Assembly (NCBI GenBank): GCA_026014485.1
Contig: JAOZIE010000001.1
Location: forward strand, 145,094-209,093
Direction: 5' to 3'
From: Candidatus Bathyarchaeota archaeon
Lineage (GTDB): Archaea > Thermoproteota > Bathyarchaeia > Bathyarchaeales > Bathycorpusculaceae
DNA: 64,000 bases
Every line of letters begins with the position of its first letter. The first letter of the stretch is position 1. The notes below the pieces were generated by a model that saw only the letters and a list, made by a program, of their open reading frames with translations, ran no database searches and was not told the origin of the DNA. The position numbers and the translations under genes were made by a program. This document shows positions 3,586 to 14,359 of the stretch, one piece after another.

Positions 3586-3873
3586 TCAAATTTCACCTCC
3601 CCTCTCCCGTTGGCTATTAGGTGAGCAAAAGTCTAAGTCAATTTCTAAATCAGCACAAAAATGAAACTCTAAGAAATCCTGATAACAAACAGGCAAAACA
3701 GCCTTAGAATAATAGAACCGTTTAACCAAAAAAGTATGCCTAAAAGCACCATGCTTAAACGTCAACTCAAGAACAGGCGAATAAACATCATAATGAATAA
3801 CCACTTCTAAATGAGGAAGCGAAAAGACTTTTTCGCCAAGACAATGGGCATTAGAGAGAGAACACTTATTCAT
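3586..3873 (-). CDS. Small element-encoded protein, translationally coupled to rep
   Basis: 95 residues from the ATG at 3873 (MNKCSLSNAHC). This start overlaps the rep stop codon by 8 bases (ATGAATAA) and has a GAGGGG-like ribosome binding site, which favours it over an upstream ATG at 3900. The protein has several cysteines (residues 4, 11, and later C and FC positions) but no clean CxxC knuckle. The family is not recognised. Coupling to rep suggests a shared role in plasmid replication or regulation. Confidence 0.5.
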   Translation of the reverse strand: MNKCSLSNAHCLGEKVFSLPHLEVVIHYDVYSPVLELTFKHGAFRHTFLVKRFYYSKAVLPVCYQDFLEFHFCADLEIDLDFCSPNSQRERGGEI

Positions 3874-4789
3874 AGTGACCCCTCTTTTTAGGTGCTTCAA
3901 TCCATTTTACAGAACCGTCGTTATCGTACAAGTCATCCTCATATTCTTCTACCCACCATTGAGCATCAAGTGGGTCGCCTAAACCAACATATTTAACGGG
4001 AACCAAGTCATGACCGCAGATGGGGCAAACATGCTTTTTCTTACGCTCCCCAGCTACCAGTTTATGTTTAGTATAAGCGCAAACGCCAACCCATGAGCCA
4101 ACATGAGAACGAATCTTACGGTAAATTAGGGTAGCGTGGTTAAGCTGATAATAGGCAGTTCCAAAAACGGTCTTACGAGCACCTTTTACTTTAACAATGT
4201 AGCCATCCTTTAGGTTTAAGCGTCGAGTAAGACCTTCAAAGCCCGAACAGTTCCAGCATTCCAGCTTTGACTTTTTGCAGCCACGACAAGCACCATAACC
4301 GCCATCTAAGAAGCCTAAAAAATGGAAGTGCGGCGCATAAAACCAATGTGCAAACTCGCCAAAGTATGTCTCATTAACTCTATGGTAACGTTGAGCATGA
4401 AAAATCATAAAGCCACCCATAAAGCCACGGGCTTTGGCAGCCTTCAACGCTTTAACCTTAAGCGTCTCATAAGGCAGACTATAATCTGACACAGGACAAG
4501 AAACGATGATGTGTTCAGGCGAACCGAACTTTACATAGAACGGCTTAAAATTCTGCTCTACTCTATCGGCTTCCTTGATAGCCCAGCGCCTAAAACAAAC
4601 TGGACATTCAGGGCGGTCACAGCTATGATAAACGCGCCTAATGAAAACCTTGCCAGCATGGTTAACACCATCCAGAGTCATTAAACGGTGTAAATCCTCG
4701 CGTAAACAGCCGACATGACCCATGAATTGACCGCATTTATCATCCTTTTGTTTACCGTCTCCAACTCGGCGATATCCGAATTTTTCCAT
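3866..4789 (-). CDS. HUH-family rolling-circle replication initiator (Rep)
   Basis: 307 residues from ATG 4789. A zinc cluster HSCDRPECPVC lies at about residues 55-65, a motif with IIVSCP at about 94-99, and the HUH metal-binding motif PHFHFLGF at about 153-160. A later AYYQLNH (about 212-218) has two tyrosines either of which could be the nicking residue, and there is a second CPICGH zinc ribbon near 255. This order matches archaeal plasmid/virus Rep proteins that nick the double-strand origin. The frame is open further upstream to 4942, but that extension is hydrophobic and overlaps the divergent gene at 4897, so I take the internal ATG. No SD is clear at 4789. It heads a three-gene operon. 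Confidence 0.75.
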   Translation of the reverse strand: MEKFGYRRVGDGKQKDDKCGQFMGHVGCLREDLHRLMTLDGVNHAGKVFIRRVYHSCDRPECPVCFRRWAIKEADRVEQNFKPFYVKFGSPEHIIVSCPVSDYSLPYETLKVKALKAAKARGFMGGFMIFHAQRYHRVNETYFGEFAHWFYAPHFHFLGFLDGGYGACRGCKKSKLECWNCSGFEGLTRRLNLKDGYIVKVKGARKTVFGTAYYQLNHATLIYRKIRSHVGSWVGVCAYTKHKLVAGERKKKHVCPICGHDLVPVKYVGLGDPLDAQWWVEEYEDDLYDNDGSVKWIEAPKKRGHYE

Positions 4790-4896
4790 GTAATCAATTT
4801 GAGGAACAGACCAAACAGTCAAACAAGACACCGATAACACTAAAAGGTGAAACAACCCATAAACAGCAAGGGAAATTTCCCAATTCGGTGATGCTA

Positions 4897-5319
4897 ATGT
4901 CTGAATTAACAAAAAAATATTCGACAAATGAGGAATTAACAAAAAAATATTGCAAAGACAAATACTGCAAAATAATATTTAAAAAATTACTCTCAAATTT
5001 AGAAACAGAAACACATTCAACTCACCGCTATAAATACAAAAAACACTTCAAATATAACGAGTTAGTCAAATTAACCGAAACCGAAATGTCAGAACCAACT
5101 CTGAGAAAACACCTAAAACATCTTCAAGAAAAAGGAGTAATAACTAAAAAGGTTAAAACTGCATATCATACTTCTTACAGATTCAACATCGAACTAGACC
5201 TTTTGATTGAGATAATGAGAAAAGGAATACTATCAAAAAAAGAAAAGCATATGCTTGTAACGCCCGACAAATTAAAAAAAGGCGACGAAATTTTAACGCC
5301 AATGTACCCTATCAAGTAG
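4897..5319 (+). CDS. Winged-helix DNA-binding protein
   Basis: 140 residues. After a basic N-terminus the segment from about 50 to 100 reads as a winged helix: a recognition-helix region with SEPTLRKHLKHLQEKGVI, then a wing with TKKVKTAYHTSYRF. It probably regulates the element's genes, including the divergent rep. Start choice: a GGTGAT ribosome binding site at 4887-4892 fits ATG 4897 (4-nt spacing) better than the GTG/ATG at 4888/4891 that lie inside it. The 107 bases between this start and rep must hold both promoters. The N-terminus has two near-identical stretches (LTKKYSTNEELTKKYCKDKY), a small internal repeat. Confidence 0.65.
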   Translation: MSELTKKYSTNEELTKKYCKDKYCKIIFKKLLSNLETETHSTHRYKYKKHFKYNELVKLTETEMSEPTLRKHLKHLQEKGVITKKVKTAYHTSYRFNIELDLLIEIMRKGILSKKEKHMLVTPDKLKKGDEILTPMYPIK

Positions 5320-5670: not shown

Positions 5671-6024
5671 CTATATGAGTTCGACAACCAGCGCGGATTC
5701 TTTAACACGTTTCATTTTTCGCTTCCGCTTCTTTTTTAAATGGTTCTCAGTGGCAGAGTTCAGGTTGAATGGCTTACCCGTGGTGACTATTTTCTGGGGC
5801 AGAAACCTTTTCCAAGCACACAAAAAAGCCAAATCGGCGCTTTGCACTCTAGATTTGTCATGAAGCAGTTCAGGAGTCTTTTTCTTAATTGGGTACCAGC
5901 GCAAGCATCGCGAACAGAAAAGTACCCCTGCATTTACCTCATCTGTTTCTTCGAAAACGTATAATTCCAGCGGGAAACAGTCATCCGCGGGGCACACAAG
6001 AAGATGCAAAAGCTTGCGTTTCAT
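5671..6024 (-). CDS. Trm112-like zinc-ribbon protein
   Basis: 117 residues. The first 60 match the Trm112/YcaR family: LLHLLVCPADDCFPLEL, then a GVLFCSRCLRWYPI motif and a TPELLHD segment. Trm112 proteins activate SAM-dependent methyltransferases for tRNA, rRNA or translation factors. The first cysteine pair is CPADDC (four between) in place of the usual CPxC, so the zinc site may be altered. An unusual basic extension of about 45 residues (Lys/Arg-rich HLKKKRKRKMKR) follows the domain. A GGAG site 7-12 nt before ATG 6024 supports the start. It stands alone; its partner methyltransferase is not in the window. Confidence 0.75.
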   Translation of the reverse strand: MKRKLLHLLVCPADDCFPLELYVFEETDEVNAGVLFCSRCLRWYPIKKKTPELLHDKSRVQSADLAFLCAWKRFLPQKIVTTGKPFNLNSATENHLKKKRKRKMKRVKESALVVELI

Positions 6025-6457: not shown

Positions 6458-7678
6458 CTATTTTGGAGGTTTGGTGTGCTTTGGGTTTTTTGTTTGCGAA
6501 GGCTTCACGGGCGTTTTTTGTTCTTTTTGGTTTATGTTTTGGGCGTGTGGCGGGGTTTTTCGGAATATTTTCTGGAAGGTTGGGTTGTCCTGAAGGGATG
6601 TACATAGGTCGCCGAACACGTCAGTTATCAATTGCTTGATGGTACAAAATGATTCGGCGTTGACGTGGACGTCTCCGAAGACATCATAGTTCATGGCAAC
6701 ACATCCGCCGGTGCATGCTGCTTTGTAGTTGCAGTCTAAGCATTTTTGGGGTTTTTCGCAGTAAGGCGCCGCTATCCGCCATTTCTCTGCCCAGCTGCGT
6801 TGATTTGGGTTGAAGCCGTGGTATATGTCTCCGATTTTGATTTCACGTGAGTCTACGAAGCGGTGGCAAGGGTAGAGTGTGCCGTCGTAGTCTACACCTA
6901 CTGCGCCTTGACCCAGACCGCATCTGGAAAGCCACTTTCGGTCTGTGCGAGTGACGGCGGCGTTTGCGTCGCGTATCCACATGCTAAAGACTGGGATACC
7001 CCGCTCCATCCATTTGCTATAGTAGTCTCTGAAGATTTCCAGTTCGGTTTTGAGCGTCGCTAAATCTTGGGGTGCCCAGTCAACCTCGTAGACGAAGTCC
7101 ACTGCCAGAGTAGTTAGTTTGTGTTCTTCTACGAGGGTGCGGATGCCTTCCGCTATGCCCTTTGTGGTTGAGGGAGTGACAGTCCATCGTAACTGCGGGT
7201 TGGGGTTGAGGTATTTTCTGACGTAAGATAGTCCTTTCCAAGCGTCGTCCCAACTGCCGGTGCCGTTTGGATAGACTCGGTTGGTGTTGTGACTTTCTTT
7301 TAGACCGTCGATAGAGCAGTTTATGCCGAAGTTGTATTGTTTCATCCACTGGGCGATTTCTTCGGTTATGAGGGTGCAGTTGGTGGTTGCACCAAATGTC
7401 CATTTGTGTCCTTCTTTGCGACATTTTTCGGCTATGTAGCGGATGATGTCGATGTTGCAGAGGGGTTCTGCACCGAAGAACCATATGTTGCCGTTTGGGT
7501 TAAGGTTCTGGCTGGCGAATTGAATTAGTTGGTCAGCGGTTTCTTTGGTCATTTTTCCGTGGGGTTGAGTCTCATTGAGTTTGTAAACGAAGCAGTATTT
7601 GCATTGGAGGTCGCATTCACTGGTGACCCAGGTGGTTAATTCTTTGAGGGGGCGTGGTTGGCTTTGGGGGCTACTCAT
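6458..7678 (-). CDS. Radical SAM/SPASM peptide-modifying enzyme
   Basis: 406 residues. The radical SAM cluster motif is CDLQCKYC (C22, C26, C29), with FFGAEPL (about 67-73) as the GGEP-like SAM site. The SPASM domain is canonical: C253, then G266-x4-C271, then C313-x2-C316-x5-C322-x3-C326 and C345, enough for two auxiliary Fe-S clusters. Enzymes of this type install thioether or C-C links or other changes in ribosomal peptides, or mature sulfatases; no sulfatase is nearby. The ATG overlaps the stop of the preceding 107-residue gene (ATGA), and that gene follows 10 nt after the cysteine-tail protein gene, so the three are one operon. The obvious inferred substrate is that cysteine-rich tail. 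The last 30 residues are a Lys/Pro/Gln-rich tail. Confidence 0.85.
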   Translation of the reverse strand: MSSPQSQPRPLKELTTWVTSECDLQCKYCFVYKLNETQPHGKMTKETADQLIQFASQNLNPNGNIWFFGAEPLCNIDIIRYIAEKCRKEGHKWTFGATTNCTLITEEIAQWMKQYNFGINCSIDGLKESHNTNRVYPNGTGSWDDAWKGLSYVRKYLNPNPQLRWTVTPSTTKGIAEGIRTLVEEHKLTTLAVDFVYEVDWAPQDLATLKTELEIFRDYYSKWMERGIPVFSMWIRDANAAVTRTDRKWLSRCGLGQGAVGVDYDGTLYPCHRFVDSREIKIGDIYHGFNPNQRSWAEKWRIAAPYCEKPQKCLDCNYKAACTGGCVAMNYDVFGDVHVNAESFCTIKQLITDVFGDLCTSLQDNPTFQKIFRKTPPHAQNINQKEQKTPVKPSQTKNPKHTKPPK

Positions 7679-7998
7679 TTGGGGAGGACCTTCCTTTTTT
7701 GGGCTGTGGGAACCAGGTTTAGTTCTATGAGGGTTTCCATTACAGTTTGCTTTATTTTTTCGTCAAGCAACAGCTTAAGTTGGTTTGGTTGTATGGGGGG
7801 CTGTGGGTTTCTGTTTGCAGGTTGGACCCTTTTCTGGTTGGGGGTTTGTAGCTGTCGGTTTGGGGCGGGGCGTAGCCGATTTGTGCTTTGACGAGCAGGG
7901 GGTTGCCCTGTTCGCCGTGCCTGATTCGACGCTGGACCATTTTGGTTGGGGATTTGTTGGTTTTTCCATTTCTGAGGATTGATTGTCGTGTTTTCCAC
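7675..7998 (-). CDS. Pro/Asn/Gln/Arg-rich small protein, middle gene of the radical SAM operon
   Basis: 107 residues. Residues 1-70 are low complexity, rich in Pro, Asn, Gln and Arg, and probably disordered; residues 72-107 look helical (QLKLLLDEKIKQTVMETLIEL). The stop overlaps the radical SAM start by 4 bases, which supports this frame over the two other open frames at the same place. The GTG at 7998 is part of a GGAGGTG motif, so the true start is uncertain. Family not recognised. By position it could be a scaffold or substrate-presenting partner of the radical SAM enzyme, whose own C-terminal tail has similar composition; this is inference. Confidence 0.55.
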   Translation of the reverse strand: MENTTINPQKWKNQQIPNQNGPASNQARRTGQPPARQSTNRLRPAPNRQLQTPNQKRVQPANRNPQPPIQPNQLKLLLDEKIKQTVMETLIELNLVPTAQKRKVLPK

Positions 7999-8008
7999 CT
8001 CCTGTTTT

Positions 8009-9793
8009 CTATTGGGCTTCGCAGTACATGCACATTAGCTGGCAGAAGTACTCACACCACTGGCAGTCCTCACAGGCGGACATGCATGTTTGGCATTCGA
8101 CTTCGCAGCCGGTCTGGCAAGCTAGTTCACACGCGGTCTGGCAAGCTAGTTCACACGCGGTCTGGCAAGCTAGTTCACACGCAGTTTGGCAAGTAAGTTG
8201 GCAGGTTGTTTGACAATAGGCATAGCATGGGCTGTTGCAGACTTGGCATTCTACTTCACAGGGTGCCTGGCATACTGTTTCACAAGTAGTGCAAGATACC
8301 TCGCAACCTACCTGACATGACAACTCACAGGTGTCTTGGCATGCTGTTTCACAAGTAGTGCAAGATACCTCGCAACCTACCTGACATACTGTTTCACAAG
8401 TAGTGCAAGATACCTCGCAACCTACCTGACACGCTGATTCGCAAACAGTGCAGGATACCTCGCAGGGGTATTGGCACGAAATATTGCATGCTTGGCATCC
8501 TTCGCAGACTTGGCATGGAATTACGCAGCCTTGACACGGCTGACATGATATGTAGCATTCATAGCAGATTTCTGAGAAGTATGCTGTTATTGTATGGTTT
8601 GTTGACTGGTCTTTGCTGACGCATAGGGTGTATGCGTCTACTGTGCCCACGGACTGGCTGTCTACTTGGACGTCGTCGATTTGCCACCAGTCGTCAGCAT
8701 GAATTATAAACTCTTGATCATTGCCGCAGGTTAGTGTGACTGTTCCTGATGGTACGATTCTTCCGTTTCCTTGTGCTACTGAAGCAGTTATAGTACCTGT
8801 GCAGTATACCGGATCAGTTTGGTATATTCGATAGACATTTATGCCTGTGTGCTGACCTTGTGAGCCATCTAGAGGGCCATCAACCATCCTAATTGGTACG
8901 GGACCGCGATTGGTCAGGGTGACGGTGTTTACTCCGTTATCATCATATGCACCGTTTTCGATTATGTTAAAGCTGGGGTATAATGGGAAAGATGCGTTGC
9001 TGATTAGGTAGTACTCTGCAAAAACGGAACCATTTACTCGGGCCTCTAAGGTGGTATATCTGTTAAGGCGGTCGTTGGCGTCGGCCCATACTTTGTTGAA
9101 GTTAAACAGGCAAATGCTTCCTGCTTGATAGTTATCTGTGCTGAAGCTGTTGAAGTTAAAGGTCCAAGCGAAAGATTGGTTAACGTCTAACGTGTGTAGA
9201 TCGTAGGGTCCACCTTGGACGTAGGAAATACCTAAGCCACCGTGAGTTTCAAAGTTACATGGACAATTTGTACCTGGACCCAAATTTCCGTCGGCACCAG
9301 TATATTCTTCGTCTGAACAGTATTCGCAATCCGCCTCCAAAGACAAGTTATACATCGAGTATGTGTATATTATCCGTAGGTTAGAGACGGTTATCCCAAC
9401 ATCGCCTTGATTCAGAAATCTGAGGGTGTTTATTCCATCTTCATTAAAATAAGGATTAAATGCGATATCAAAAGCTTGCCAGTTGCCATATCCTACACTC
9501 CCCGGGACAACACAATTAGAAAGAGTATTATCACCATTTAGCACAAAATGCATAGTATTTGGAGTGCTTGACGATGGAGGGTTTGCTTCTGCATAGAAAT
9601 ATACGCAGCACTCATTTTTTTCAGTGAAACATTTTGGTTTTTTGGGGGTGAACGTTAACGTTGCAAACTGCCCTGGCGGTATTATCGTACTAGCTAAACT
9701 CCATTGAGCGACGCCTCTTCCTCCTGGGTCGTCACCCTGTATGCTTGAGCTACATTGGTAGTTGTCAAATATTGAAAATGACGTTTGAGACAT
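8009..9793 (-). CDS. Large protein with a 50-cysteine repetitive tail, likely radical SAM substrate
   Basis: 594 residues, ATG 9793, with an in-frame TGA 15 bases upstream, so no signal peptide can be hidden. Residues about 20-150 and 180-325 are two related beta-sandwich-like modules (each with a DGINTLRFLN / NGVNTVTLTN strand followed by a tyrosine-rich strand). Residues about 330-405 resemble a divergent InlB B-repeat (Listeria-Bacteroides type). Residues 410-594 form a tail with 50 cysteines by my count, always 3 or 4 residues apart, mostly followed by Gln or Glu. It contains a 15-residue unit (CQVGCEVSCTTCETV) and an 8-residue unit (CQTACELA). First gene of the operon with the Pro/Asn/Gln-rich protein and the radical SAM/SPASM enzyme. 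Function unknown; a metallothionein-like or disulfide-rich protein is the alternative. Confidence 0.8.
   Translation of the reverse strand: MSQTSFSIFDNYQCSSSIQGDDPGGRGVAQWSLASTIIPPGQFATLTFTPKKPKCFTEKNECCVYFYAEANPPSSSTPNTMHFVLNGDNTLSNCVVPGSVGYGNWQAFDIAFNPYFNEDGINTLRFLNQGDVGITVSNLRIIYTYSMYNLSLEADCEYCSDEEYTGADGNLGPGTNCPCNFETHGGLGISYVQGGPYDLHTLDVNQSFAWTFNFNSFSTDNYQAGSICLFNFNKVWADANDRLNRYTTLEARVNGSVFAEYYLISNASFPLYPSFNIIENGAYDDNGVNTVTLTNRGPVPIRMVDGPLDGSQGQHTGINVYRIYQTDPVYCTGTITASVAQGNGRIVPSGTVTLTCGNDQEFIIHADDWWQIDDVQVDSQSVGTVDAYTLCVSKDQSTNHTITAYFSEICYECYISCQPCQGCVIPCQVCEGCQACNISCQYPCEVSCTVCESACQVGCEVSCTTCETVCQVGCEVSCTTCETACQDTCELSCQVGCEVSCTTCETVCQAPCEVECQVCNSPCYAYCQTTCQLTCQTACELACQTACELACQTACELACQTGCEVECQTCMSACEDCQWCEYFCQLMCMYCEAQ
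8111..8182. repeat. Three perfect 24-bp tandem repeats in the cysteine tail
   Basis: Copies at 8111-8134, 8135-8158 and 8159-8182 are identical; a degenerate fourth follows. Each encodes the 8-residue unit CQTACELA (on the minus strand). Identity at silent positions implies recent expansion by slippage or unequal recombination, so copy number probably differs between strains. Confidence 0.95.
8276..8431. repeat. Three near-identical 43-bp repeats in the cysteine tail
   Basis: Copies start at 8276, 8345 and 8389 (43 bases each, the last differing only at its end). They encode the GCEVSCTTCET part of the 15-residue cysteine unit. As with the 24-bp repeats, identity at silent positions suggests recent duplication within the gene. 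Confidence 0.9.
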
Positions 9794-9994: not shown

Positions 9995-11323
9995 ATGAAA
10001 TTCGCTACGGTGACAACTATATCGGTGGCAGTCATTTTAGCAATTTTCGGTTTGGTGTTACCGGTTTATGCTGTGTCTACGTGGAGTGTGCAAACTGTGG
10101 ATGCAGTGGCTGTTTTATCAGGTGGTTTGGCTTTGGCTTTGGATTCTAACGGTAACCCGCACATGGTCTATGTGTATGCCCCCGAGGGCAGTTCCCAAAC
10201 AGGCGGGCATGTTGATGTGCACATGAATCCGCAGAGTCTCACGTATGCCAGCTGGAACGGCAAAACTTGGGAAAAACAAGCCATAGACTACTTTTATATC
10301 GCAAATTTGTCTACTCAAGTTGTCTTCTCCCTCAGCTACAGTAGCCTCAAATTAGACCCCCAAAACAACCCCCACCTAGTATACAGCATACCCAACCCAA
10401 ATAGCACTAAGCAATATCTCCTCAAATATGCATGTTGGACTGGTTCAGCTTGGAGCATCCAAACAGTTGATTATGGCATTAGGGGCGCTTTGGCTTTGGA
10501 TTCTTTTGGGAAGCCTCACATAGTCTATTCAGGGGCTGATGGGCAGTTAAGTTATGCAAGCTGGAACGGCTCAGCTTGGGCAACCCAAATTGTAGACCCC
10601 CAGTCAAGCCGAAGATTAACTGATATTAATAATTTGCAGTATTTGGCTTTGGATTCTGCCGGTCGACCGTATATTGTTTATGAGGTGGGGGCGGTGATTA
10701 AGTTTGCAACAAATAGCGTCACAGGCTGGACAATAGACACTCTCCTCACAGGCTTTGACACCACAGCGTTTCCGTTGGGGAATATTGTTTTGGACTCGAT
10801 GGGTTATCCACATTTTAGCTGCGGCATAAATGATTGGGTGATGTATGTCAGCTGGAACGGTTCAGCCTGGAATAGTCAAAAGGTTGTTTCGGGTATTGGC
10901 TTTTCTCACGGTACTTTTCTTGTTTTGGATAAAAACGATACCCCCCACATTACGTTTGCCAACAGTTCGGGCTATGTTGGTTACGCTCGCTGGACAGGCA
11001 CCTCATGGTTCGCTCAATTTGTAGCTCATGCAGCTTTGGCGGGTAATTCTATGCCTCTTGCTTTGGATTCAGCCGGCAACCCCCACATCGCCTATTTAGA
11101 CGTATTACTCACATATTACTTCACAGATGGAAAAATTATGTATACCACCGGCAATCAGTCCCTACAGACTCCCACACCAGCACCCACAGAAACGGCTGCA
11201 CCAACGCCTTCGCTTTCTATCCCCGAGATTAGCCCTTTGGTCACACTCCCGCTTTTGGCTTTGACAGCGGTGGTGGTTGTTATTGTTAAAATAGGAGTCA
11301 GGAGATTAAGAACAGAAACTTAA
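9995..11323 (+). CDS. Secreted, membrane-anchored beta-propeller-like protein
   Basis: 442 residues. A signal peptide (about 1-27, ending PVYA) is followed by about seven repeats of roughly 45 residues with LALDSxGxPHIVY and YASWNGSAW-like motifs, as in sialidase-like or FG-GAP-like propellers. A Thr/Pro-rich linker (about 385-405) leads to a C-terminal hydrophobic helix and a basic end (RRLRTE), an anchor typical of archaeal surface proteins. It acts outside the cell; the ligand is unknown. It diverges from the cysteine-tail operon. The ATG at 9995 gives the complete signal peptide; two ATGs just upstream (9982, 9985) are in other frames. Confidence 0.75.
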   Translation: MKFATVTTISVAVILAIFGLVLPVYAVSTWSVQTVDAVAVLSGGLALALDSNGNPHMVYVYAPEGSSQTGGHVDVHMNPQSLTYASWNGKTWEKQAIDYFYIANLSTQVVFSLSYSSLKLDPQNNPHLVYSIPNPNSTKQYLLKYACWTGSAWSIQTVDYGIRGALALDSFGKPHIVYSGADGQLSYASWNGSAWATQIVDPQSSRRLTDINNLQYLALDSAGRPYIVYEVGAVIKFATNSVTGWTIDTLLTGFDTTAFPLGNIVLDSMGYPHFSCGINDWVMYVSWNGSAWNSQKVVSGIGFSHGTFLVLDKNDTPHITFANSSGYVGYARWTGTSWFAQFVAHAALAGNSMPLALDSAGNPHIAYLDVLLTYYFTDGKIMYTTGNQSLQTPTPAPTETAAPTPSLSIPEISPLVTLPLLALTAVVVVIVKIGVRRLRTET

Positions 11324-11911: not shown

Positions 11912-13120
11912 TTGGATTTGAGCGACAAAATCAACAAATCAAGTTTCTCGAACCTGAAAATCTTATGGCATAGCGTGGCACCATGGATTGCCTCAGGATA
12001 CGGCAAAACAACTAGAGAAGTCTGCCGTAGACTACAAGAGCACGGTGCCAAAGTGATAATCTCCGCATATTACGGCGCAGAACCAGGGGGAGTCCCACCG
12101 TACGAAGTCCCAGTTTTCCCATCAAAAAATGGTTCCTTTGGCATAGCTTCAGCTGCCCAATACTGCAACCAGTACAATGTTGATGTAGGTGTGCTTTTTA
12201 CTGATTGGTGGGCGTTCAGCGAATTCCCTAAAGTCATTCCGAAAGCTACACTGTACGGACCCATGGACCACATCAACTACTCCGAGGAAATACTGAAGTT
12301 CACCCGAGACTACTACAAAATCATAGGCCTCTGCAAATGGCAGCAAAAATGTCTCGCAGACGTCGGCATAAAATCAGACTACATATACCACGGGGTAGAT
12401 GTGAACGTCTTTAAACCGTTAAATAAAAAAGAAGCAAGAAAAAGACTCGGCATAAAAGAAGAGGATGCATTTGTTTTTGGCACAGTTGCAGCTAACAGCG
12501 ATAAAGAAGACAGAAAATCACATACGCGATCAATGAAAGCAATGAAATACTTTTTGGAACAAAACCCCGACGTCAAAAACGTCATTTGGCTGTATCACAC
12601 AAGTCCAAACGCCCCTCGCGGCATGCCCCTCTCTTCAATCTCGCACAAATTGGGGTTAGACAAAATAATCAGATTCATGGACCCAAATTTGGAAAGCACA
12701 ATGCTCACAGAAGGAGCCTTAGCAACGCTGATGAACTGTTTTGACGTACACCTGCTTTGCAGCAAGCGTGAAGGATTCGGAATGCCAATCCTAGAGACCC
12801 AGGCTTGCGGCGTACCAAACATATGCCACGACTTCAGCAGCATGACAGAACTAGTAGAAGGCCACGGCTGGCTATGCAAATCATTAGGAACCGGACTGAA
12901 CCTTGAGACCACACCCCTTAACGCTGAAACCGCTACCCCAGACGTCTATGATATAGCGAGATGCATCAAAGAAGCATACTTCAGCCCAGACAAAGTGAAG
13001 AAATACGGAGAAGAATCCAGAAAATTCGCGCTACCATTCAACTGGGATGACATAGTCGAATACCGCTGGGTTCCAATTCTCGATAAAATGGCAAACAAAA
13101 TAAAAGCTGAACGAAGGTAG
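11912..13120 (+). CDS. GT4-type glycosyltransferase, first tandem copy
   Basis: 402 residues. N-terminal Rossmann-like domain begins at LKILWHS (residue 15); the C-terminal domain has the GT4 donor-site signature E-x7-E (E287 and E295 in SKREGFGMPILE) followed by ACGVPNI. It transfers a sugar from a nucleotide donor to an acceptor on the inner membrane face; donor and acceptor are not predictable. The frame starts at TTG 11912 or TTG 11918; neither has a clear ribosome binding site, and the conserved part begins later. A close paralogue follows 30 bases downstream. With the epimerase at 14841 and WecB elsewhere it suggests surface glycan synthesis. Confidence 0.75.
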   Translation: MDLSDKINKSSFSNLKILWHSVAPWIASGYGKTTREVCRRLQEHGAKVIISAYYGAEPGGVPPYEVPVFPSKNGSFGIASAAQYCNQYNVDVGVLFTDWWAFSEFPKVIPKATLYGPMDHINYSEEILKFTRDYYKIIGLCKWQQKCLADVGIKSDYIYHGVDVNVFKPLNKKEARKRLGIKEEDAFVFGTVAANSDKEDRKSHTRSMKAMKYFLEQNPDVKNVIWLYHTSPNAPRGMPLSSISHKLGLDKIIRFMDPNLESTMLTEGALATLMNCFDVHLLCSKREGFGMPILETQACGVPNICHDFSSMTELVEGHGWLCKSLGTGLNLETTPLNAETATPDVYDIARCIKEAYFSPDKVKKYGEESRKFALPFNWDDIVEYRWVPILDKMANKIKAERR

Positions 13121-13150: not shown

Positions 13151-14359
13151 ATGAAATCTAATTCCGATAAACACAGACAATCACGCATGAAGCTTAAAAT
13201 CCTGTGGCACAGTACGGCGCCGTGGATTGCTTGCAGCTACGGAAAAGCAACGAAAGAAATATGCACCAGACTACAACAATCTGGATTCCGGCTTATAATC
13301 TCTGCATACCACGGTGCAGAGCCGGGCGGTATTGCTCCTTACCCTCTACCGGTTTTACCGTCTAAAGCTGGAATTCTCGGAATAAATTCGGCTGCGCAAT
13401 ATTGTAAGCAATATGGAATTGATGTTGGCATACTCTTTTCAGACCCCTGGGCGTTCAGGGATTTGCCGCCACAACTCCTTCCGAAAGCAACCTTGTACGG
13501 GCCTATGGATCAATTAAATTATTCTGAGGAAGTAATAGAGTTTTACAAGAAATATTGTAAAATAATTTCATTGTGTAAGTGGCAACAGAAATGCCTAACA
13601 GGGTATGGCCTAAAATCGGACTTGATATACCTTGGCGTAAACGTCGATATCTTCAAACCCATGGACAAAAAAGAGATTAGAAAAAGGATGGGCATAGACG
13701 AAGATGTCTTCGTTTTTGGAACCGTAGCTACAAATAATGAAAAAGATGACAGAAAAGGTCACACTTCAGCAATAAAAGCAATGCATTACTTTTTAGACCA
13801 AAATCCTGATGTCAAAAATGTCGTTTGGCTTTACCATACGATACCTGACAACCCTTATGGGCTGCCTCTCTCTTCGATCGCGCACAAATTTGGGTTAGAT
13901 AAAATCATCAAATTCATGGATCCAAGTTTGGCGAGCACAATGCTCAGTGAAGAAGAGTTGGCTTCTTTGATGAATTGTTTTGACGTGCATTTACTCTGCA
14001 GCAAGCGTGAAGGTTTTGGCATGCCTATACTGGAGACACAGGCTTGCGGCGTACCAAATATTTGCCATGAGTCCAGTAGCATGACGGAGCTGGTGGATGG
14101 ACATGGATGGCTATGTAAATCGTTAGGGACCGAACTAAACTTGGAAACCACCCCAATCAACGCCGAAACCGCCGTCCCAAACGTCTACGACATTGCCAAA
14201 TGCATACAAGATGCATACTTTCACCCAAACAAAGTCAAAAGCTATGGAGAAGAATCAATAAAGTTCGTATCGCAGTATAGTTGGGATAGCGTAGTTAAGA
14301 ACCAGTGGGTTCCCTTGCTGGATAAAATGGCAGCCACCATAAAACGACACAGAAGTTGA
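13151..14359 (+). CDS. GT4-type glycosyltransferase, second tandem copy
   Basis: 402 residues, same length and domain layout as the upstream copy and identical at most positions through the whole length, including the SKREGFGMPILE donor motif and CGVPNICH. A GGTGAT ribosome binding site at 13141-13146 fits ATG 13151. The two differ most in the loop after the donor motif and in the N-terminal 15 residues. This is a tandem duplication, with both copies intact, so they probably differ in acceptor or donor. Codon use differs a little between the copies (the second uses more T-ending codons), so the duplication is not recent. Confidence 0.75.
   Translation: MKSNSDKHRQSRMKLKILWHSTAPWIACSYGKATKEICTRLQQSGFRLIISAYHGAEPGGIAPYPLPVLPSKAGILGINSAAQYCKQYGIDVGILFSDPWAFRDLPPQLLPKATLYGPMDQLNYSEEVIEFYKKYCKIISLCKWQQKCLTGYGLKSDLIYLGVNVDIFKPMDKKEIRKRMGIDEDVFVFGTVATNNEKDDRKGHTSAIKAMHYFLDQNPDVKNVVWLYHTIPDNPYGLPLSSIAHKFGLDKIIKFMDPSLASTMLSEEELASLMNCFDVHLLCSKREGFGMPILETQACGVPNICHESSSMTELVDGHGWLCKSLGTELNLETTPINAETAVPNVYDIAKCIQDAYFHPNKVKSYGEESIKFVSQYSWDSVVKNQWVPLLDKMAATIKRHRS

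Follow-up and report, generated by a model that had tools for sequence, protein, structure and literature searches.

QhpD/PeaB is a SPASM enzyme that cross-links Cys to Asp or Glu in a protein subunit. PapB joins Cys to Asp or Glu and accepts Cys-Xn-Asp with n = 0-6, as well as Glu (PMC9413430). A gene for a radical S-adenosylmethionine (SAM)/SPASM enzyme beside a gene for a large Cys-repeat protein was analyzed in a 64,000-nucleotide stretch of Candidatus Bathyarchaeota archaeon (assembly GCA_026014485.1, contig JAOZIE010000001.1, positions 145,094 to 209,093; the whole stretch is called the window). By sequence the system looks like the Cys-repeat or ranthipeptide radical SAM systems; among the named SPASM families tested there was none whose cutoff the enzyme reached, and it is a member of no curated family. 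The pairing of enzyme and Cys repeat is conserved in related Bathyarchaeia and has viral relatives. A first-pass annotation had proposed that the enzyme cross-links the repeat and had described three tightly packed minus-strand genes, which were located as open reading frames (ORFs) with the gap and overlap it gave:

8009..9793, minus strand: Cys-tail protein, 594 amino acids (aa), the presumed substrate (ORF)
7675..7998, minus strand: small Pro/Asn/Gln-rich protein, 107 aa, the presumed recognition or adaptor peptide (ORF, alignment of relatives)
6458..7678, minus strand: radical SAM/SPASM enzyme, 406 aa (ORF, Pfam, NCBIfam and CteB match)

A 10-base gap follows the Cys-tail gene and a 4-base ATGA overlap precedes the enzyme gene. 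The exact start of the middle gene is uncertain because GTG 7998 overlaps a Shine-Dalgarno-like AGGAGGTG.

Close homologues of the enzyme (62-67% identity) were found in six other genomes of 151 as seven full-length copies; in a seventh genome (G081) the copy was cut by the contig end. A Cys-tail protein was encoded directly upstream of the enzyme in 7/7 full-length relatives, or 8/8 with the window. Readable members of the enzyme clade comprised the 8 Bathyarchaeial cassettes and loci L043, L438, L232, L198 and L380; a Cys-repeat protein was nearby in 13/13, in 12 upstream on the same strand. At other SPASM loci of the same genome group a Cys-repeat ORF was present in 0/14 fetched stretches. 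The N-terminal double beta-sandwich of the Cys-tail protein was also found without a Cys tail (L401-L404, L420-L422). Four genomes with such tail-less paralogues (G043, G074, G076, G089) had no clade enzyme; G006 and G070 have the enzyme, but their tail-less paralogues sit elsewhere in the genome. Since these paralogues are apart from the enzyme and none of the 14 other SPASM loci has the repeat, the enzyme follows the Cys tail and not the rest of the protein. Enzyme and Cys tail therefore hold together as a unit, conserved in all 8 full-length cassettes and 13/13 readable clade members. Homologues of the tail protein do occur without the enzyme, a case that the first-pass annotation would have counted against its proposal, but the Cys tail is missing from them too, and the recurrence in other archaeal genomes that it asked about was found in related Bathyarchaeia, L043 and L438.

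Locus L043, from another archaeal family, was recovered by a phylum-wide profile search. Its enzyme gene lies in a tail module that looks viral, with PHROG matches to tail-fibre and protease families, and is accompanied there by genes for a small protein and for two short CxxC-repeat proteins, each with ∼30 Cys. In L438, from another family of the same class, the genes follow the window order: first one for a fibre-like protein, then two for Cys-repeat proteins (with 42 and 44 Cys), one for a small protein that has a Cys cluster, a Pro/Gln-rich linker and a helix, and last the enzyme gene; the locus was taken as viral by eye. The Cys-repeat/enzyme pair is also carried by viral contigs L232 and L198. 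L380 (JAFGAC010000196.1) is filed under a Clostridiales metagenome-assembled genome (MAG), encodes close homologues of both cassette proteins and is probably a misbinned contig with Bathyarchaeia-like cassette genes. In a maximum-likelihood tree of the enzymes (midpoint root, L438 and L380 left out) the eight enzymes from Bathyarchaeial chromosomes come together as a single clade (100/99), which groups with L043 (98/88), then L232 (100/96), then L198 (99/97); the chromosomal clade nests inside viral enzymes. Substrate-like CxxC clusters were also seen at the enzyme N-termini of L232, L198 and L060 and at the N-termini of the small proteins of L043 (9980-10240) and L438 (4433-4765), where self-modification or a docking mimic is possible.

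IMG/VR was scanned by DNA patterns for Cys repeats and tails were kept by a C[QE] filter. A SPASM enzyme was present in the fetched stretch at 28/54 loci with filtered tails and at 16/270 without (Fisher p 9e-15); several of these 16 (L060, L198, L368) do have Cys repeats, which the strict filter overlooked. When the remaining tail loci were followed to their whole records, 10/20 contained the enzyme, against 2/40 control records. In L060, L311, L313 and L336 the gene order is a tape measure or similar protein, a structural protein ending in the Cys repeat, then the enzyme, and the viral tail context is backed by PHROG and Pfam tail matches. Bacterial loci with large Cys-repeat proteins beside the enzyme include those of Clostridium tepidiprofundi DSM 19306, an isolate, and Clostridiaceae bacterium M8S5, which has a complete genome. 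The location in an archaeon, earlier held to be a particularity of the system, is therefore not one: viral contigs carry the pairing widely, within tail modules wherever the context could be read, and some bacteria have it as well. No description of a viral or archaeal pairing was found in open-access papers, a search to which subscription papers and bioRxiv were largely outside; in viruses the pairing is apparently widespread and undescribed.

Scans of genomes and viral contigs by enzyme sequence or alignment gave nothing usable, the patterns probably being too strict. One early set of Cys-pattern matches was rejected, most of it being low-complexity sequence or a phage CSxC repeat of an unrelated kind. 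Pattern matches in Spartobacteria, Nitrosarchaeum and a Pirellulaceae MAG, among others, were set aside because the stretch lacked either a true C[QE] tail or the enzyme. Short NCCQANCCQTCQGCQ peptides lie beside a distant SPASM enzyme in L171, L184, L203 and L239 and are a probable separate family of ribosomally synthesized and post-translationally modified peptides (RiPPs). Viral tail proteins of L327 (6582-9833) and L337 (1006-4341) carry a Cys repeat followed by Hint (intein-type)-looking sequence, which may point to self-cleavage once the repeat is modified. In L377 (Clostridium tepidiprofundi) the genes adjoining the Cys-repeat protein and enzyme are a sigma-70-like gene and one for a BhlA-family holin, with a similar arrangement by eye in L388 (Vallitalea MAG); the holin genes suggest holin-mediated release.

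The Cys-tail protein was divided into four regions, with a conserved motif marked in the small protein:

9353..9721, minus strand: first beta-sandwich domain, residues ∼25-147 (AlphaFold2 model, mean predicted local distance difference test (pLDDT) 70; fold matches)
8816..9235, minus strand: second beta-sandwich domain, residues ∼187-326, ending in a conserved INIYR-type strand (alignment, AlphaFold2)
8576..8800, minus strand: immunoglobulin (Ig)/InlB-repeat-like domain, residues 332-406 (weak Big_3_5 match; mostly high pLDDT)
8021..8566, minus strand: Cys-repeat tail, residues 410-591, 50 Cys at spacing 3/4 (Cys-chain count)
7678..7779, minus strand: conserved C-terminal helix motif (VMETLIELNLVPTAQKRK) of the small protein (8-member alignment)

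Counting gave a single chain of exactly 50 Cys, as the first-pass annotation had it, with gaps of 3 (15 times) and 4 (34 times) and one further Cys 19 residues earlier; no other ORF of at least 40 aa in the window has a Cys chain of even 5. Gln or Glu directly follows 37/50 tail-region Cys (mean 14.0 and maximum 25 in 20,000 shuffles). Part of the tail has expanded through 24-bp and 45-bp tandem duplications, and tails of this kind contain almost no Lys or Arg. The Ig/InlB-like domain is absent in G079, G072 and G067 (an alignment gap in four relatives). Fold matches of the N-terminal domains were to BcsB, PNGase F, a tandem of CBM22 and phage tail proteins; because the template modeling (TM) scores are low, these domains are described only as predicted beta-sandwich, carbohydrate-binding module (CBM)-like domains. 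No export signal was recognised by eye in the protein.

Conservation of the small middle protein, raised earlier as a check, is concentrated in its C-terminal helix, which was kept in 8/8 members: E88, L90, I91, L93 and L95 are invariant within it (ETLIEL), plus one Asn. In five relative copies a distinct gene for the small protein (61-67 aa) stands between the tail gene and the enzyme gene. G067 (loci L029, L030) lacks such a gene, and its tail protein carries the motif as a C-terminal fusion. The small protein of L043 has a similar C-terminal end (hhalign P 2e-4, probability 46%). Scans with Pfam and NCBIfam models gave no match of the small protein to a RiPP recognition element (RRE) or PqqD-like domain. 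Because the helix is conserved and is naturally fused to the substrate, not the enzyme, in G067, the small protein is probably a recognition or adaptor piece. The first-pass annotation had noted no separate leader or recognition domain nearby; the middle gene probably encodes it.

The CxxxCxxC motif and complete SPASM Cys set reported for the enzyme were all located by residue: C22xxxC26xxC29, and seven SPASM Cys in C253-x12-G-x4-C271, C313xxC316x5C322x3C326 and C345. Both sets are invariant in 8/8 Bathyarchaeial enzymes, and the radical SAM core starts near residue 15. The enzyme matched Pfam Radical_SAM at 1.6e-16 and NCBIfam PapB (NF047865) at 2e-66 (224.5 bits, below the cutoff of 340). 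PapB was the best NCBIfam model for all 8 enzymes, with QhpD second, and the best solved relative was CteB (5wgg, 3.4e-31).

We propose that the SPASM enzyme is dedicated to modifying its large neighbor protein at the Cys-repeat tail. The tail Cys would become intrachain thioether cross-links, ranthipeptide-like and perhaps to the Gln or Glu following each Cys, and the cross-linked tail would be a rigid rod needing no disulfides in an anaerobe. Substrate and enzyme would be united by the C-terminal helix of the small protein; most species would do this in trans, those with the fusion in cis. The modified protein may be tail fibre-like or adhesin-like, with carbohydrate-binding-type beta-sandwich domains, and the cassette may descend from a viral tail-gene module that is now chromosomal in Bathyarchaeia. 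Taken as a whole, with thioether stapling, helix adaptor and descent from viral tails, this explanation is the probable one, held with some reserve.

Residues after Cys bear on the acceptor. In 1,456 viral CxxxC units, a set chosen partly for C[QE], Gln made up 46% and Glu 45%, together 91%; in 137 Bathyarchaeial units, not so chosen, Gln made up 50% and Glu 30%, together 80%. From this predominance and the Cys-Asp/Glu links of PapB, a thioether to the gamma carbon of the Gln or Glu after Cys is the favoured guess. The earlier proposal of cross-linking gains from the conserved pairing and from best scores to the thioether-forming maturases PapB, QhpD and SCIFF; thioether formation itself we infer.

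Several points weigh against this explanation. The pairing and fusion were observed, and modification of the tail itself is what we infer. Acceptor logic is uncertain, Gln being as common as Glu and the G067 tails having few Glu. A Cys spacing of 3-4 also suits metal binding or a Cys-lined solenoid. No SPASM gene was seen in 10/20 viral Cys-repeat records, although these may be fragments. The AlphaFold model of the enzyme is poor (pLDDT 58), and Pfam and NCBIfam scans found no RRE domain and no N-terminal leader.

Metal binding is one alternative: the tail would be a metal or iron-sulfur cluster scaffold, metallothionein-like or electron-conducting, with the enzyme acting elsewhere or sharing the operon incidentally. 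CxxC and CxxxC spacings are able to bind metals, and several viral enzymes and the L043 and L438 small proteins also carry CxxC clusters. This is unlikely given that the enzyme tracks the Cys repeat over many unrelated architectures, that Gln/Glu after Cys is left unexplained, and that typical metallothioneins are not poor in Lys/Arg, unlike the tails here. Equally improbable in our judgment is another chemistry on or close to the Cys, for example sactionine links at the alpha carbon, Cys oxidation to formylglycine, epimerisation or the linking of carbon to carbon. In its favour, the SPASM enzymes also comprise sactisynthases, cyclophane formers and anaerobic sulfatase maturases, each of them matched at a lower score; against it, the top scores go to thioether-forming, non-alpha-carbon families (PapB, then QhpD), and dozens of regular Cys suit cross-linking more than a single catalytic residue. 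That the Cys remain unmodified thiols or pair as disulfides within a Cys-ladder solenoid, the association reflecting only a shared tail-module location, is very unlikely: tail modules do cluster many genes, and unrelated phage CSxC-repeat proteins have no radical SAM neighbor in the stretch (L066, L088, L118, L141), but the association is also seen in chromosomal cassettes that lie in no viral module, and in bacterial loci that have the enzyme as direct neighbor. The repeat in those four phage loci is of a different, CSDCSGC type.

Other genes of the window were also annotated. Positions 11912-13120 and 13151-14359 encode tandem GT4 glycosyltransferases; GT4 homologues are found again close to the cassette in L025, L028 and L030 and by eye adjoin a tail-less paralogue in L421. 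Positions 9995-11323 encode a beta-propeller protein of the BNR type that probably has a membrane anchor at its C-terminus, and BNR/PQQ beta-propellers recur beside cassettes (L024, L025, L028) and beside paralogues (L403, L420, L422). The domains of the Cys-tail protein and these GT4 and propeller neighbors fit a fibre- or adhesin-like surface function. Positions 5671-6024 encode a Trm112-like protein, a similar one lying beside the tail-less jelly-roll paralogue in L404 (3779-4105). A weak Rep_1-like replication initiator (3866-4942, E 0.017) suggests an integrated element beside the cassette. In an attempted empty-site comparison the flanking genes tested were not found in congeners.

More broadly, and tentatively, archaeal and bacterial tailed viruses may widely thioether-staple the Cys repeats of tail proteins with radical SAM enzymes of their own, Bathyarchaeia having domesticated the module with the separate helix protein as recognition element. 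It is possible, on that reading and with no greater assurance, that stapled rods are rigid and disulfide-free and that the domesticated product is a host surface or released protein. If so, radical SAM cross-linking would extend from small peptides to large structural proteins, viruses and anaerobes would have a covalent way of stiffening proteins that does not depend on redox state, and nature would supply an enzyme with which long repeat proteins can be stapled. Related pairs are reachable in the cultured carrier C. tepidiprofundi DSM 19306 and the sequenced bacterium M8S5.

Among known systems, anaerobic sulfatase maturases differ in score (93.1 bits against the TIGR03942 cutoff of 349.45), and no sulfatase, which the first-pass annotation had named as a competing substrate, turned up among the neighbors tested. 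The Cys-every-fifth maturase CefB (NF038107) shares a regular Cys repeat and a SPASM maturase; the spacing here is 3-4 and that of CefA/CefB 5, and the window enzyme scored 108.4 bits against the CefB cutoff of 600. The SCIFF maturase CteB (TIGR03974; PDB 5wgg) is the nearest solved structure and a thioether former by the TIGR03974 name, but the window enzyme scored 134.1 bits against a cutoff of 425 and lacks ∼90 residues preceding the CteB match. CXXX-repeat systems (maturase TIGR04115, target TIGR04117) share a Cys-Xaa-Xaa-Xaa repeat beside a SPASM enzyme. The viral tail protein of L336 matches TIGR04117 at 9.9e-9, yet at 35.2 bits is below the cutoff of 50; the window tail matched 0 families at E<=1, so no NCBIfam target model matched. 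Here the repeat forms the tail of a large protein, and the window enzyme reached 115.8 bits against the TIGR04115 cutoff of 350. QhpD/PeaB with QhpC gave the second-best model, at 148.8 bits against the TIGR03906 cutoff of 453, and no quinohemoprotein genes are in the cassette. PapB/PapA is closest, with the best model for all 8 enzymes, the same SPASM layout and Cys near acidic substrate residues. It differs in that the window enzyme is below cutoff (224.5 < 340) and that the substrate here is large and multidomain with 50 Cys in a C-terminal repeat, with no leader or RRE detected and a separate small partner. Against the PapB-type Cys-Xn-Asp/Glu motif, Glu or Gln follows most Cys here, Gln being equally common. 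The novelty claimed by the first-pass annotation is narrowed, NCBIfam already having models for Cys-repeat radical SAM targets in general (CXXX-repeat, Cys-every-fifth); the window enzyme itself is in no curated family, and its tail partner matches no target model.

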